From positions 1 through 64,000 of the forward strand of contig NZ_AZRN01000013.1 in NCBI RefSeq assembly GCF_002895565.1: a DNA stretch of 64,000 nucleotides. The letters run 5' to 3'. The translations under genes were made by a program, and so were the position numbers. The notes below the pieces were generated by a model. It saw only the letters and a program-made list of their open reading frames with translations, ran no database searches and had not been told where the DNA came from. The stretch is from Petrotoga mexicana DSM 14811 (lineage in GTDB: Bacteria > Thermotogota > Thermotogae > Petrotogales > Petrotogaceae). Shown here piece by piece: positions 9,435 to 19,141 of this stretch (position 1 is the stretch's first letter; the number at the start of each line of letters is the position of its first letter).

Positions 9435-10791
9435 ATGAAAAAGGTTCTATTGATATTTTGTATATTACTTCTTCCATTTTCCCTTTCTCTATCTTTTAAT
9501 TCTCCAAGCTTTATCTGGAATTACGTTAGCAGTTATCAAACAAATGAACTAATTTATTGGAAAGTCAAATATACCAAAAATTTAATAGAGCTTATTGAAG
9601 ATTATTTGCCATTTTTAGAAAAATCAGGCATATCTTTTCCTAAAAACTTCAAATGTTGAAGTTCATTTTATTGATGTTGGCCAAGGTGATTCAGTTTATA
9701 TAAAATTACCGAATAATGTTGATATTTTAATTGACGGTGGTAATAATTGGTATGGTGACGATGTAGTTACTTACCTCAAATCCCAAGATGTTGATGATAT
9801 AGAGTATTTGATAGCTACTCATCCTGATGCAGACCATATAGGTGGGTTAGATGATGTTTTAAAAGCTTTTGAAGTTGAAAATGTGTATGCCCCGGATGTT
9901 TCCCACACCACGAAAACCTATAATGATTTTGTCTTAGAAGTGAGAAACGAAGGAACCTACATTAAAACAACTAAGGCTGGGATTACTTTAATTAACCCTG
10001 CTTTAGCGGCAGTTATAGGTTGCCCTTCATTCAGTAATGTGTATCTTCTTGGACCGGTGAAAAATTATGGAACAGATCTTAATTCTTGGAGTGCTGTTAT
10101 GAAGTTAGATTTTGGAATTTCTTCTTATCTTTTCACTGGAGATGCCGATAGAATTTCTGAAAAAGATATGATAGATAACGGTATGTTTTTAAATGCAGAT
10201 GTTCTTAAGGTTGGCCATCATGGATCCAATTCTTCGACCTCGCAAGAGTTTTTAAAAGAAGTTAATCCAAAATATGCGGTTATATCTGTTGGTAAAAATA
10301 ATAATTACGGTCACCCAGCACAGGAAATATTAGAAAGATTGGAAATGTATAAGGTAGATCTTTTTCGTACAGATTTGCAGGGACATATTATAGCTATTAG
10401 TGATGGGAATAAAATAAATTTTAACGTTGAACCAATTAACACTGTTAATTTTATGGAAGATGCTCAAGAATCAGCACCACAAAAAACTTCTATATTGATT
10501 ACGAACTTAGATGTGTCTGATGAGAAGGTCACTATTTGTAACAAGACTGACGAAGACGTTGATTTAACAGGATGGGTTTTGGTTAGCGAAGTTGGAAACC
10601 AAAAGTTTAATTTTCCAGATGGATATATACTTAAAGCTGGAAAATGTGTGAATATTTTGTCAGGCCGTAACGCAATAGATGAACCTCCAACTAATTTAAA
10701 ATGGACAGGAGCTTATATTTGGAATAACGATGGAGATATTGCAGCCCTATACGATGCAGAAGGGATACTAATAAGTAGGGTTGAATTCTAA
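9435..10791 (+). pseudogene. Exported ComEC-like MBL hydrolase with lamin-tail domain, split by a frameshift
   Basis: The first frame (start 9435, SD GAGGAG) has a signal peptide and about 74 residues, then stops at 9659. The second frame carries VEVHFIDVGQGDSVYIKL, ATHPDADHIGGLDD and KVGHHGSN, the metal-binding motifs of ComEC/Rec2-type MBL enzymes. It ends with a lamin-tail-like domain from about 10480 on (NLDVSDEKVTICN...DLTGWVL). Removing one A from the five-A run at 9642-9646 joins them as FPK-TSNVEVHFIDVGQGD. No in-frame start lies upstream of VGQGDS, and the first available is TTG at 9808. A real mutation, a +1 programmed frameshift or a sequencing error are all possible. Intact, it would be an exported nuclease- or phosphodiesterase-like protein of about 452 residues. 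Confidence 0.8.
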
Positions 10792-12807: not shown

Positions 12808-13851
12808 ATGCAAACAAAAAACATTTTAGATTTTGAATATTCAGATTTGCAAAGTTATTTGCTCAATGAATTAGGACTTGAAAAGTTCAGAACTGATCAA
12901 ATTTGTGATTGGATTTATAAGAAAAGAGTTTTTGATTTTGAATCAATGACTAATTTATCTAAAGACGATAGACAAAAACTCAGTGATAACTTTAAAATAT
13001 CTATTCCTCATATTATTAAAAAACAGGTATCAAAGATAGATGGAACTACTAAGTATCTTTTGGAGTTAGAGGATAGAAACACGGTTGAAGCGGTAATTAT
13101 TTACTATCCTTCAAGAACGATCGCATGTATTTCAACACAAGTTGGTTGTCCTTTGAAATGCTCATTTTGTTCTACAGGACAAAGCGGTTACGTTAGAAAT
13201 TTATCGACAGGTGAAATAATTGGTCAATTGTTAGCTATGGAAAAAGATAAAGAGATGGATGTAAAAAACGTTGTATACATGGGAATGGGTGAACCATTAT
13301 TGAATTTTAACAACGTTGTTCAAAGCGTTGAGATCTTAAACCATCCAAAGATGAAAAAGTTAGGAGCAAGACATATAACCATTTCAACTGCCGGAATACC
13401 TCACAAAATTGAAGAACTGGGTGATTTGAGCAAAGAGTTTCGGCTTTCTGTCTCGCTTCATGCACCAACGAATCTTCAAAGAGATCAAATAATGCCAATA
13501 AATCATAAGTATCCTGTAGAGCAGGTGATTCAGTCATGCCGAATTTATCAGGAAAAAACAAAAAAGAGGGTCACTTTTGAGTATATTTTGATAAAAGGAT
13601 TTAATGATTCAAAAGAAGATGCCTTAAAATTAGTTGAACTGTTTGGTGACCTGAAAGTGATGGTTAATTTAATTCCTGTCAATGCAAATCCAGCAGGGTT
13701 TGAAAAGCCTTCGAAAAGATTTATTCAGGCTTTTTTAGATACTCTTATAAAGAATGGAATTGATGCTGTTATACGTGCCGAGAAAGGTAGCGATATATCA
13801 GCTGCTTGTGGTCAATTAAGGACCAGAGAGTTAAAAGAAGTTAATAGGTGA
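12808..13851 (+). CDS. rlmN: 23S rRNA (A2503-C2)/tRNA (A37-C2) methyltransferase
   Basis: Radical SAM methyltransferase that modifies A2503 of 23S rRNA and A37 of some tRNAs. The 347-residue length is typical. The cluster motif CPLKCSFC sits near residue 114, and MGMGEPLLN near 157 is the SAM-binding GEP-type motif. The C-terminal AACGQLRTR contains the second catalytic Cys. The SD is GAGAGGAAG before ATG. It heads a run rlmN, PASTA gene, rsgA, rpe, rdgB with tight or overlapping junctions, an order shared with Firmicutes except for the missing kinase and phosphatase. Confidence 0.95.
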   Translation: MQTKNILDFEYSDLQSYLLNELGLEKFRTDQICDWIYKKRVFDFESMTNLSKDDRQKLSDNFKISIPHIIKKQVSKIDGTTKYLLELEDRNTVEAVIIYYPSRTIACISTQVGCPLKCSFCSTGQSGYVRNLSTGEIIGQLLAMEKDKEMDVKNVVYMGMGEPLLNFNNVVQSVEILNHPKMKKLGARHITISTAGIPHKIEELGDLSKEFRLSVSLHAPTNLQRDQIMPINHKYPVEQVIQSCRIYQEKTKKRVTFEYILIKGFNDSKEDALKLVELFGDLKVMVNLIPVNANPAGFEKPSKRFIQAFLDTLIKNGIDAVIRAEKGSDISAACGQLRTRELKEVNR

Positions 13852-13856
13852 AAATA

Positions 13857-14360
13857 ATGATTAAAATAAGGAAATTAATAAAAAATTTGATATTTTTTAT
13901 TCTAGGAATAGTTGCCGCGGGAATACTCGCCTTTTTTTTCATGACAGTTTTTGTCAATAGTTCGAATACGGTGGAGATTCCTTATTTGATTGGAGAAGAT
14001 AAAAAAGTAGCAGTTTCTTCTTTAGAGGAATTAAATTTAATTCCAAACGTAGTAGGTAACGGAGAAAAAGTTTTGTATACCGATCCTGAACCTGGTACAA
14101 AGGTAAAAGAGGGTCATCATGTAATAGTTCAACTTAGAGAGATGAATACTCTGAAGATTCCTGATCTGATTGGAATACCGTCTGGAGTAGCACAACAGTT
14201 TCTAAGTGAATACAACATAACTTTTGAAATTAGAAATCAATTAACTTATAAACCTGAAGATAATGATGTAGTACTGAACATGTCTCCAACACCAGGAAAT
14301 AATTATAATGGAGAAAAGGTGATTCTCTATATTGGTGAATATGAAGGGAGTAATCAATGA
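13857..14360 (+). CDS. Membrane-anchored two-PASTA protein without kinase domain
   Basis: A 167-residue protein with an N-terminal membrane segment (about residues 9-31, LIFFILGIVAAGILAFFFMT) and two PASTA-like repeats (about 40-97 and 98-163, each starting with IPYLIG or IPDLIG and ending with P-x-PG). PASTA domains bind peptidoglycan fragments outside the cell, usually on PrkC-type Ser/Thr kinases or PBPs. In Firmicutes the slot between rlmN and rsgA holds prpC and prkC; here only the extracellular part exists. ATG at 13857 has AGGTG upstream; the GTG at 13848 is an alternative. The rsgA ATG overlaps its TGA. Confidence 0.8.
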   Translation: MIKIRKLIKNLIFFILGIVAAGILAFFFMTVFVNSSNTVEIPYLIGEDKKVAVSSLEELNLIPNVVGNGEKVLYTDPEPGTKVKEGHHVIVQLREMNTLKIPDLIGIPSGVAQQFLSEYNITFEIRNQLTYKPEDNDVVLNMSPTPGNNYNGEKVILYIGEYEGSNQ

Positions 14361-15259
14361 GTTGGAGAAGGGGTATAGTTGTTAGATTTCATTCGGATAT
14401 GGTATCCGTTCAAGATTTGGAAACTAATCAAAAAGTTAACTGTTTCCTACCTGGCAGATTTAAATTACAGAAGATTCGACCAATTGTTGGCGATTATGTA
14501 GAGTATTCTAAGGACCAAAATTATAGTTATGGAAGAATTGAAAACATTTTAGAGAGAAAAAATGAATTGTACAGGCCCAGGGTTGCTAACTTGGATCAGC
14601 TTGTTTTAGTTACGTCAATTAAAGAACCTAAAGTAGATTTGATAGTAATCGATAAAATCATAGTTCTCGCTGAAAAAGAAAATCTGGATATAGTCATAGT
14701 GTTAAACAAAACAGATTTGCTTGTCAACGAAGAAGAAAAAAAAGAAATGGAAAGATTTATAGAAATATATGGTAAAATTTATCCTGTAATTCCCACATCG
14801 AAAATAACGAAAAATAATTTAGATAGATTAAAGTCCTATTTAAAAAACAAAGTATCGACCTTCGCAGGCCCTTCTGGAGTTGGAAAGTCTAGTTTATTGA
14901 ATGTTTTAGACCCAAAATTGAAACTTCGAGAAGGAGAAATCTCCAAAAAATTAGGTAGAGGTAAACATACTACAACGTATGCTGAACTTCTTTATTTTGA
15001 TTTTGGAGGATATATAGTTGATACACCTGGTTTTTCGAGTTTAGAGTTAAGGGGAATAAAAAAAGATGAAGTAAGGCGTTATTTCAAAGAGTTTTTGGAA
15101 TTCGACGGTTTTTGCCAGTTTTCTAACTGTTCTCATACGGTTGAACCTGGTTGTGCAGTTAAAGAGGCTGTGGAAAAGGGACAAATTTCATTTAGCAGGT
15201 ATACCAATTATTGTCAAATATACGAAGAAATAGAAGATAGTTCACTAAAATTACAATAG
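14357..15259 (+). CDS. rsgA: Ribosome small-subunit-dependent GTPase A
   Basis: Circularly permuted GTPase that checks late 30S ribosome assembly. The 300-residue protein has an N-terminal OB fold, then the permuted motif order: G4 NKTD near residue 116, G1 GPSGVGKSS near 173, G3 DTPGF near 220. A C-terminal zinc site follows, with Cys and His in FCQFSNCSHTVEPGC near 255. It overlaps the upstream PASTA gene by ATGA and precedes rpe by 12 bp. Confidence 0.96.
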   Translation: MSWRRGIVVRFHSDMVSVQDLETNQKVNCFLPGRFKLQKIRPIVGDYVEYSKDQNYSYGRIENILERKNELYRPRVANLDQLVLVTSIKEPKVDLIVIDKIIVLAEKENLDIVIVLNKTDLLVNEEEKKEMERFIEIYGKIYPVIPTSKITKNNLDRLKSYLKNKVSTFAGPSGVGKSSLLNVLDPKLKLREGEISKKLGRGKHTTTYAELLYFDFGGYIVDTPGFSSLELRGIKKDEVRRYFKEFLEFDGFCQFSNCSHTVEPGCAVKEAVEKGQISFSRYTNYCQIYEEIEDSSLKLQ

Positions 15260-15271
15260 AGGTGTTTCAGT

Positions 15272-15931
15272 TTGATAAAAATATATCCTTCCATTTTAGC
15301 TGCTGATTTTTTGAATTTAGCTCAAGAGATAGAGAAAGTTTCTAAAAAAGCTGATGGAATACATCTTGATATTATGGATGGAGTGTTTGTTCCAAATATT
15401 ACTTTTGGTTTTCCAATCGTGGAATCGATTAGAAAAAAATTTAAAGATATATATTTGGATGCTCATTTGATGATCGTTGAACCAGATAAATATTTAGAAG
15501 AATTTTCTAAGTATGTGAATAGCATAACGGTACATTATGAAGCGGTGGTACATCTACATAGAACCATATTAAGGATCAAAGAGTTGGGGTGCGACGCGGG
15601 TGTAACTTTAAATCCGCATACTCCCGTGTCACTTTTGGAAGAAATTCTTCCGTATGTCGATAAAGTATTGATTATGTCTGTTAATCCAGGATTTACTGGG
15701 CAACATTTTATAGAAAGCACTTACAAAAAAGTAAGAAAATTAAGAAAAATTTCAGATGAAAAGGGACTGAATGTTGAAATAATGGTTGACGGAGGAGTGA
15801 ATAAACAGAACATTGGGTTACTTCACCAAAGTGGTGTTAACACTTTCATCATTGGTGCGAGTGTGTTTTATTCCGAAAATCCTTCACAAGAGATAATCGA
15901 ACTAAAAAAGGTGGCTGGAGATTTTGAGTGA
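15272..15931 (+). CDS. rpe: Ribulose-phosphate 3-epimerase
   Basis: Interconverts ribulose 5-phosphate and xylulose 5-phosphate in the pentose phosphate pathway. The 219-residue TIM barrel has SILAADFLNL at the N terminus, HLDIMDGVFVPNITFG near residue 32 (metal-binding His and Asp), DAHLMI near 63, SVNPGFTGQ near 137 and VDGGVN near 171. The start is TTG behind GAGGTG. It works with the transketolase encoded at 50645. It overlaps rdgB by 8 bp. Confidence 0.95.
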   Translation: MIKIYPSILAADFLNLAQEIEKVSKKADGIHLDIMDGVFVPNITFGFPIVESIRKKFKDIYLDAHLMIVEPDKYLEEFSKYVNSITVHYEAVVHLHRTILRIKELGCDAGVTLNPHTPVSLLEEILPYVDKVLIMSVNPGFTGQHFIESTYKKVRKLRKISDEKGLNVEIMVDGGVNKQNIGLLHQSGVNTFIIGASVFYSENPSQEIIELKKVAGDFE

Positions 15932-16984: not shown

Positions 16985-17011
16985 GATCACATGGGAGGGT
17001 TTCAAGTGATC
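16985..17011 (+). promoter_or_regulatory. Inverted repeat enclosing the SD of the PPP phosphatase
   Basis: GATCAC (16985-16990) can pair with GTGATC (17006-17011). The loop holds the SD GGGAGGG, and the right arm begins with the GTG start codon. It could lower translation; the stem is only 6 bp. Confidence 0.4.
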
Positions 17012-17677
17012 TGGGCAATTTCGGATATCCACGGTATGTACGATACTTTAATTTCGCTTTTAAAACAAACACAGATCAAAGATTCTGACACGATGATTTT
17101 TCTTGGTGATTATGTGGATAGAGGGCCTGATTCAAAAAAAGTATTGGATCTTTTGATTACTTTAAGCAAACAGAGGAATCGTATCTTTCTAAAAGGAAAT
17201 CATGACGATATGATGGTCGACTATTACCAAAAAACTCATGAGTATGGTGAAGGTGTCTGGTTTTACAATGGTGCCTTATCGACAATAAGAAGTTTCAATA
17301 ACAATATTGAGGAAGAGTACATAAACTTTTTAAAAGAGCTACCTTTGTATTGTGAGATAGAAGTAAGAGATGAGAAATATTTATTTGTACATGCCGGAGT
17401 AAATCCAGAAAAACCACTTTCCAAACAAGATAAATGGGATTTGTTATGGATAAGAGATGAATTTTTAAGTATGTCTGAAAGGTATTATAATTACACCGTT
17501 ATTCATGGACACACTCCAACATTGTATCTAACAGGTGAAGATAAAATCTTTGTGAAGCGAGATAATAATAAGAAAATAATAAGTGTAGATATAGATACGG
17601 GATGTGTGTACGGTGGGAAGTTGACGGCGTTTGGAATCACCGAGGATAATAAACATGTAGTTTTACAGTCTTTTTGA
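17006..17677 (+). CDS. PPP-family metallophosphoesterase (Ser/Thr phosphatase or ApaH-like)
   Basis: A 223-residue cytoplasmic phosphoesterase with every PPP metal motif: DIHG near residue 8, GDYVDRGP near 35, GNHD near 66, VHAG near 130 and HGHTP near 168. Bacterial relatives (PrpA/PphA, PrpE, ApaH) dephosphorylate proteins or cleave dinucleoside polyphosphates; length alone does not decide. The GTG at 17006 has GGGAGGG 6 bp upstream; the longer ATG at 16991 has no SD. No protein kinase gene is visible in the window. Confidence 0.85.
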   Translation: MIWAISDIHGMYDTLISLLKQTQIKDSDTMIFLGDYVDRGPDSKKVLDLLITLSKQRNRIFLKGNHDDMMVDYYQKTHEYGEGVWFYNGALSTIRSFNNNIEEEYINFLKELPLYCEIEVRDEKYLFVHAGVNPEKPLSKQDKWDLLWIRDEFLSMSERYYNYTVIHGHTPTLYLTGEDKIFVKRDNNKKIISVDIDTGCVYGGKLTAFGITEDNKHVVLQSF

Positions 17678-17815: not shown

Positions 17816-19141
17816 ATGCTGAAAAAAATAAAAGATTATTGCAATTATTCCCAAAGCCAGATTTTGAAGCAAATTTTGGAAGATAATGGTATACAAGTAT
17901 TCTTAAAATCTCCCATAGGAATAGGGGGAGAGTACTTCGGTGAGGGAGCAATTTATGATTTGTATGTTGAAGATAAGGATTTTAGCACAGCAAAAGTTAT
18001 AATTAGAGAACTTGAGAAAGGAGGAAACACTTTGTCAGAACTTAAAAAGACGCCGCTTTATGAAAGACATATAGAACTTGGAGCCAAGATGGGAGAATTT
18101 GTAGGGTGGGAGCTTCCGTTATGGTATTCTTCTATTATTGATGAGCATAACGCCGTAAGAAATTGTATTGGAGTTTTTGATGTATCTCATATGGGTGAAT
18201 TATTTGTGCAAGGGAAAGATGCTCAAAAATTTGTAAATTACTTGATTACAAATAATGTGGAAAGGGTACCCAATGGCAAAATAGTGTACTCCCCTATGTG
18301 TAACGAGGATGGTGGTATTTTAGATGATCTTCTCGCTTATAAATTCAACGAAGAAAAGATCTTGTTGGTAGTCAACGCTTCTAATACTCAAAAAGATTTT
18401 GAATGGGTAAAAACACAAGCTTCCTCTTTTAATGTTGATATTATTAACAAGAGTGATGAGTATTGTCAAATAGCTTTTCAAGGTCCAAAATCTCAGGATC
18501 AACTACAAAAATATCTTAAAGATATTGATCTGGATAGTATAGAATATTATTCTTTTGAAGTTATACAACTAGAAGGAGAAGAAATAATCTTATCAAGGAC
18601 AGGATACACAGGTGAAGATGGTTTTGAATTATATCTATCTCCAACAATCGTTGTTAAAGTTTGGGATAAACTTATACAACTTGCTAAAGAGGTTGATGGG
18701 AAACCATGTGGTTTGGGAAGCAGGGACACTTTAAGGTTCGAGCCTAAAATGCTCCTTTATGGCAACGATATGGATGAAAATACTACACCGTTGGAGGCAG
18801 GCTTAAGATGGACTGTCGATTTTAATAAAGAATTTATTGGTAAGGAAGCTTTACTGAAACAAAAAGAAGAAGGAATCAAAAGAAAATTAGTTGGTATGGA
18901 AATACACGACAAGATGCCAGTTAGGCATGGGTATGAAATTTACAAAGACAATGAAAAGATAGGGTTTGTGACAAGTGGTGTAAAGTCTCCTACTTTAGGG
19001 AAGAATTTAGCCTTAGGCTATGTAAGTAAAGAATTTTCGAAATCTGGGACCATGGTTAGTATAAAGGCAAGAAACAAATTATTAGAAGCTGAGGTTGTAA
19101 AAACTCCGTTTTATAAAGGAAGTGTAAAAAGCACAAAATAA
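17816..19141 (+). CDS. gcvT: Aminomethyltransferase (glycine cleavage T protein) with N-terminal DUF2007 extension
   Basis: One 441-residue frame. Residues 1-70 resemble DUF2007 (YCNYSQSQILKQILEDNGI...DLYVEDKDFSTAKVII), a small putative signalling domain. Residues 73-441 are a full GcvT of 369 residues, close to the family's usual length: RHIELGAKMGEFVGWELP, the FDVSHMGEL segment near 120 and RTGYTGEDGFEL near 260. GcvT passes the aminomethyl lipoyl intermediate to tetrahydrofolate, making methylene-THF and ammonia. An internal SD (AAAGGAGG) and TTG at 18032 mean GcvT alone is probably also made, or is the only true GcvT product. gcvPA and gcvPB follow; gcvH is not in the window. Confidence 0.88.
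   Translation: MLKKIKDYCNYSQSQILKQILEDNGIQVFLKSPIGIGGEYFGEGAIYDLYVEDKDFSTAKVIIRELEKGGNTLSELKKTPLYERHIELGAKMGEFVGWELPLWYSSIIDEHNAVRNCIGVFDVSHMGELFVQGKDAQKFVNYLITNNVERVPNGKIVYSPMCNEDGGILDDLLAYKFNEEKILLVVNASNTQKDFEWVKTQASSFNVDIINKSDEYCQIAFQGPKSQDQLQKYLKDIDLDSIEYYSFEVIQLEGEEIILSRTGYTGEDGFELYLSPTIVVKVWDKLIQLAKEVDGKPCGLGSRDTLRFEPKMLLYGNDMDENTTPLEAGLRWTVDFNKEFIGKEALLKQKEEGIKRKLVGMEIHDKMPVRHGYEIYKDNEKIGFVTSGVKSPTLGKNLALGYVSKEFSKSGTMVSIKARNKLLEAEVVKTPFYKGSVKSTK
18018..18034 (+). promoter_or_regulatory. Internal SD and TTG start of GcvT proper
   Basis: AAAGGAGG followed 7 bp later by TTG (18032-18034) in frame with the longer ORF. This is the strongest SD in the region and sits exactly where the GcvT fold begins. 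Confidence 0.75.

Follow-up and report, generated by a model that had tools for sequence, protein, structure and literature searches.

The gene between rlmN and rsgA in Petrotoga mexicana DSM 14811 is a functional, widely distributed form of a wall sensor that has no kinase, and not a local wreck. The sequence analyzed is a stretch of 64,000 nucleotides (contig NZ_AZRN01000013.1, positions 1 to 64,000; here called the window), in which the gene occupies positions 13857 to 14360 of the forward strand and encodes a PASTA-only membrane protein, as supported by its open frame, Pfam, dN/dS, and AlphaFold2. We consider that this protein is probably the kinase-free positional counterpart of PrkC, one that binds the wall outside the membrane and positions or tunes wall synthesis.

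The mechanical start of the open frame is a GTG at 13848, which would give a product of 170 amino acids, while the ATG at 13857 (codon 4 of the same frame) gives 167 amino acids. The ATG looks the better start because AGGTGA is located 6 nt before it and the methionine is kept in two congeners. The upstream neighbor is rlmN (12808 to 13851, forward strand; Pfam RlmN_N and Radical_SAM), whose last 4 bp are shared with the PASTA gene if translation starts at the GTG. On the other side, rsgA (14357 to 15259, forward strand; Pfam RsgA_GTPase) shares 4 bp with the end of the PASTA gene and is followed by rpe (15272 to 15931, forward strand; Pfam Ribul_P_3_epim). The Pfam assignments of the neighbors, among which there is also a Ham1 family gene, confirm the rlmN-PASTA-rsgA-rpe order reported in the preliminary description. 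Side observations concern the domains of two further genes of the window. The GcvT gene at 17816 to 19141 has a subthreshold match to DUF2007 at residues 15 to 67 (22.7 bits, against a cut-off of 25.7), possibly a fusion, and the gene at 9808 to 10791 encodes a Metallo-beta-lactamase domain with a lamin tail domain after it.

Pfam identified two PASTA stretches and no other domain in the protein (61.2 bits, E 9.3e-17; the curated PF03793 cut-off is 23.2 bits), with neither a Hanks-type kinase domain nor a transpeptidase domain. A short cytoplasmic tail precedes one membrane helix, predicted with approximate limits of 13887 to 13955 after a Lys/Arg-rich N terminus, and the predicted topology is N-in/C-out. 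PASTA domain 1 (13971 to 14135, forward strand; PF03793, 39.9 bits) belongs to the short GxG type known from PBPs, scoring 40.4 bits with a PBP model and 22.6 with a kinase model. PASTA domain 2 (14154 to 14336, forward strand; PF03793, 25.4 bits) is of a longer type and scores 21.8 bits with the kinase model and 10.8 with the PBP model; only 4 residues follow it. The AlphaFold2 model, computed from 22 aligned Thermotogota sequences, consists of a single long N-terminal helix (residues 2 to 37), which includes the membrane helix, and two PASTA folds (mean pLDDT, 88). The best Foldseek matches to it in the PDB are the PASTA domains of PBP1, PBP2X, PknB, and PrkC, with E values down to 6e-9. The open frame, Pfam, and the structural model thus agree with the original description of the product as an anchor and two PASTA repeats only.

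The kinase and phosphatase noted earlier as missing from the locus are also missing from the rest of the genome: the P. mexicana assembly (2.13 Mb, 99.6% complete) contains no Pkinase match and no PP2C_2 match, and its only other PASTA gene encodes a transpeptidase PBP. The PPP-type metallophosphatase pointed out downstream is present (16991 to 17677, forward strand; Pfam Metallophos), outside the conserved unit. No such gene adjoins the locus in the congener G051 (L102) or in most other Thermotogota loci, and we ruled it out as a linked element or partner because it is not a conserved neighbor, even within the genus.

Purifying selection on the PASTA gene is strong (dN/dS of about 0.1), which marks it as a working gene. 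By the Nei-Gojobori method, the comparison with G048 gives a dN/dS of 0.114 and that with G051 gives 0.071, and the matching pairs of rsgA give 0.093 and 0.061, respectively; synonymous change is near saturation in the G051 pair, and the G048 value is the safer one. The constraint is about equal to that on the housekeeping neighbors, and therefore the gene is not a decaying remnant.

PASTA matches occur in 99 of the 103 Thermotogota genomes, although in some of these the PBP is the only match. The rlmN-PASTA-rsgA order is found in 5 of the 11 families (f1, f8, f9, f11, and part of f10), and family f5 has the order PASTA-rsgA-rpe. Families f2 and f7 possess rlmN-rsgA-rpe without the PASTA gene, which indicates that the gene is dispensable in some relatives. 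Divergent PASTA copies in G077 and G078 were confirmed by Pfam and fall below the detection of a single-sequence search. The RsgA tree, which is built from one gene and has long branches to the outgroups, groups the Thermotogota rows together (88/92 support), including the f5 row with long-type repeats.

Among the matches listed, no PASTA kinase, pseudokinase, or PASTA-fused kinase remnant was found in Thermotogota. Kinases are encoded in 27 of the 103 genomes, at other loci, and every one of the ten genomes that match PP2C_2 is among these 27. The kinases examined in family f2 (L034, L035, L037, L039, L040, and L043) have no PASTA domain and share neighbors of their own; a conserved Ser/Thr kinase with an HGDLKP motif is located beside PHP-like and polyprenyl synthase-like genes in this family (names read from sequence). 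The f2 genomes, which have no PASTA-only gene, also have, besides the RsgA gene of rlmN-rsgA-rpe, a second one elsewhere (L055/L056, L057/L058, L059/L060, L061/L062, and L063/L064). The preliminary description suggested a sensor that had lost signalling. Its kinase-free state at a PrkC site holds, but a loss within the Thermotogota lineage is not borne out, as no PASTA kinase was found there among the matches listed and the PASTA-only state prevails at this site over the sampled families (30 against 4). The same description would have been contradicted by relatives in which the gene is always independent of kinases and placed in other contexts; the Thermotogota gene is always kinase-free, but its context is mostly that of rlmN and rsgA.

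The site was compared across 75 outgroup genomes, one per family, in 46 of which a non-PBP PASTA gene was examined, the open reading frame being chosen by the strand and frame of the PASTA match. A kinase-free PASTA gene is located directly upstream of rpe in 28 of the 46 and upstream of rsgA-rpe in two more (G124 and G138), a total of 30. By comparison, a kinase-type domain with PASTA precedes rpe in three and a kinase precedes rsgA-rpe in one, a total of four. Since these genomes hold one to several thousand genes, the adjacency of PASTA and rpe across the outgroups is not due to chance. The genes def, fmt, and rsmB (labels from sequence motifs, not Pfam) are found upstream in many of the loci, and the complete arrangement in outgroup genome G153 is def-fmt-rsmB-rlmN-PP2C-kinase/PASTA-rsgA-rpe. 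The B. subtilis operon likewise holds prpC, prkC, cpgA (rsgA), and rpe (PMC6449344, PMC8631317). Together with a C-terminal domain that is common to both forms in other phyla, these loci identify the site as the PrkC site, and the link to PrkC drawn in the preliminary description was therefore right.

PASTA-only genes extend through the sample of Fusobacteriota, where PASTA matches occur in 60 of the 60 genomes, nearly all of them in open frames of PASTA-only size. A Fusobacterium contig (L166) has the PASTA-rsgA-rpe order, as in G124, and its RsgA is 72% identical to that of G124, which by this comparison is close to Fusobacterium. Read by eye, the G115 version resembles a lipoprotein (LPGC) and the G138 version a cleaved secreted protein, which suggests that a cytoplasmic part is not needed. 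We found no paper in the open-access literature that describes the rpe-PASTA linkage across phyla.

The relationship between the two forms was assessed with a profile for which only the C-terminal parts of 14 PASTA-only proteins were used. This profile detected the region in four unseen proteins (G117, G177, G106, and G121; E values of 1e-11 to 4e-9) with scores of 32 to 40 bits, compared with at most 5.9 bits for shuffled proteins, and a kinase-type domain is present in the G117, G177, and G106 proteins. Because the C-terminal ectodomain beyond the PASTA repeats is common to both forms, the PASTA-only and kinase forms of other phyla are, as judged from their sequences, versions of one gene. 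In these other phyla only, kinase activity has very probably been lost in places at the rpe site: HRD is replaced by HGH and DFG by DFS in all three genomes of the G117 phylum, and in several genomes of the G106 phylum the rpe-linked copies show NAG, HGA, or NFG where a canonical motif would stand. Within the latter phylum (L197 to L226), the rpe-linked kinase-PASTA genes mostly carry HGD and the unlinked copies mostly HRD, and several linked genes are without catalytic residues; the numbers are too small for the excess of dead kinases at linked over unlinked sites to be more than suggestive. The G148 and G121 proteins, encoded in genomic contexts other than the rpe site, begin with a region without a Pfam kinase, which by eye could be a decayed kinase, and this region is followed by three PASTA domains.

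How the kinase-free state arose in Thermotogota can be explained in several ways. An ancestral PrkC-type kinase of the phylum may have lost its kinase domain and its PP2C, leaving a wall-binding part that still works, and we regard such truncation as a serious possibility that nonetheless falls short of an even chance. The site common to kinase-PASTA genes, the degraded motifs at the rpe site in the G117 and G106 phyla, and the C-terminal domain common to both forms in other phyla are all consistent with it. The Thermotogota protein of G004 also fits shrinkage from a fuller ectodomain, as it has three repeats, the first two clearly of the long type, and a C-terminal extension. However, Thermotogota have none of the PASTA-fused kinases, pseudokinases, or remnants that would record such a loss among the matches listed, and the PASTA-only form is the commoner one at the site across the sampled families. 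The C-terminal ectodomain profile also has no match in Thermotogota, including G004 and family f11 despite their C-terminal extensions.

Alternatively, there may never have been a kinase, the PASTA-only form being ancestral at the rpe site and the kinase a later addition in Bacillota and others; this history is possible, and we put it forward with reserve. It agrees with the 30 sampled families that are PASTA-only, against four with a kinase-type domain, and with the PASTA-only form found throughout the Fusobacteriota sample and in a named Fusobacterium. However, one genome per family is no tree, and some lineages have clearly gone from a kinase to a dead kinase, which means that loss is real and could be frequent.

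An origin of the Thermotogota repeats from a PBP PASTA tail moved into the site, instead of from a PrkC-like ectodomain, is improbable. PASTA 1 favors the PBP model in 28 of the 37 Thermotogota proteins (the class models assigned 11 of 11 held-out Thermotogota PBP repeats to the PBP model), and PBP PASTA domains head the sequence matches in the PDB, although these matches are weak. Yet PASTA 2 favors the kinase model in 33 of the 37 proteins, repeats 1 and 2 of G004 are of the long type, the loss of length in one loop would mimic the PBP type, and the site itself is common to other phyla. Some members of family f10 have the PASTA gene apart from rsgA and near a histidine kinase gene and an HDOD gene (L091:4856-7095 and L093; also L087 and L089). 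A role as a sensory subunit that reads the wall state and passes the signal to a separate histidine kinase is nonetheless very unlikely, since the arrangement in genus g36, where the PASTA and PAS-HisKA-HATPase genes overlap by 4 bp and the HDOD gene comes next, is interrupted by a cation-efflux gene in genera g32 and g33 and no histidine kinase is present at the usual rlmN-rsgA site.

In the reading that we favor, of a kinase-free counterpart of PrkC, the single-pass protein would expose two PASTA domains outside the cell and have almost nothing inside; with only about a dozen cytoplasmic residues, signalling by an activity of its own is impossible. On the outer side of the membrane, the most likely ligands of the ectodomain are nascent peptidoglycan or lipid II, and/or septal synthases; wall binding is the simplest reading in view of the peptidoglycan binding by PASTA domains of PBP1 and PrkC that is described below. 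Such binding would position or tune wall synthesis without a phosphorylation output of its own, and it would involve a partner in the wall machinery. Points against this reading are that the locus lacks the gene in families f2 and f7 and that the histidine kinase neighbor in part of f10 leaves room for a sensory role. The linkage to rsgA and rpe may reflect joint expression of functions in wall growth, ribosome assembly, and pentose-phosphate flux. Studies of B. subtilis connect the prpC-prkC-cpgA-rpe operon with wall metabolism as well as carbon metabolism (PMC6449344, PMC8631317), and this may be why the association with rsgA and rpe has lasted.

More broadly, we tentatively suggest that the PASTA ectodomain encoded upstream of rpe could be an ancient bacterial wall protein whose core job is free of phosphorylation, with PrkC-type kinases as one elaborated version and with several lineages keeping or returning to the kinase-free form. 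PASTA domains have mostly been studied as kinase sensors or as PBP tails. A kinase-free form under strong selection at a kinase locus, together with pseudokinases at the corresponding site of other phyla, makes the ectodomain's own function directly testable.

Compared with known systems, the window protein resembles PASTA kinases of the PrkC/Stk1 type in its site between rlmN and rsgA-rpe, its one membrane helix, and its PASTA ectodomain. Unlike PrkC, it has no kinase domain, no PP2C partner, and no PrkC-type C-terminal ectodomain detectable with the C-terminal profile, and it has two PASTA domains where PrkC has three. For PrkC of B. subtilis, PMC5786024 reports binding of peptidoglycan fragments by the PASTA region. 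The short GxG-type first repeat is shared with the tails of class B PBPs (S. aureus PBP1 and S. pneumoniae PBP2X), which are the closest solved relatives of the protein by sequence and fold; in S. aureus, the PBP1 PASTA domains have been shown to bind peptidoglycan, and the septum does not progress without them (PMC9426605). In contrast to class B PBPs, the window protein has no transpeptidase or dimerisation domain, and the PASTA-PBP is a separate gene in the genome. Its short N-terminal anchor, PASTA repeats, and neighbors are those of the PASTA-only proteins encoded upstream of rpe elsewhere, including in Fusobacterium. The proteins of other phyla usually have three long-type repeats, and part of them carry the C-terminal domain common to the kinase forms, whereas the Thermotogota forms are shorter and have a short-type first repeat. 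With an anchor and PASTA domains only, encoded upstream of rsgA-rpe, the window protein fits a group for which we propose the name "kinase-free PASTA protein of the rpe site."
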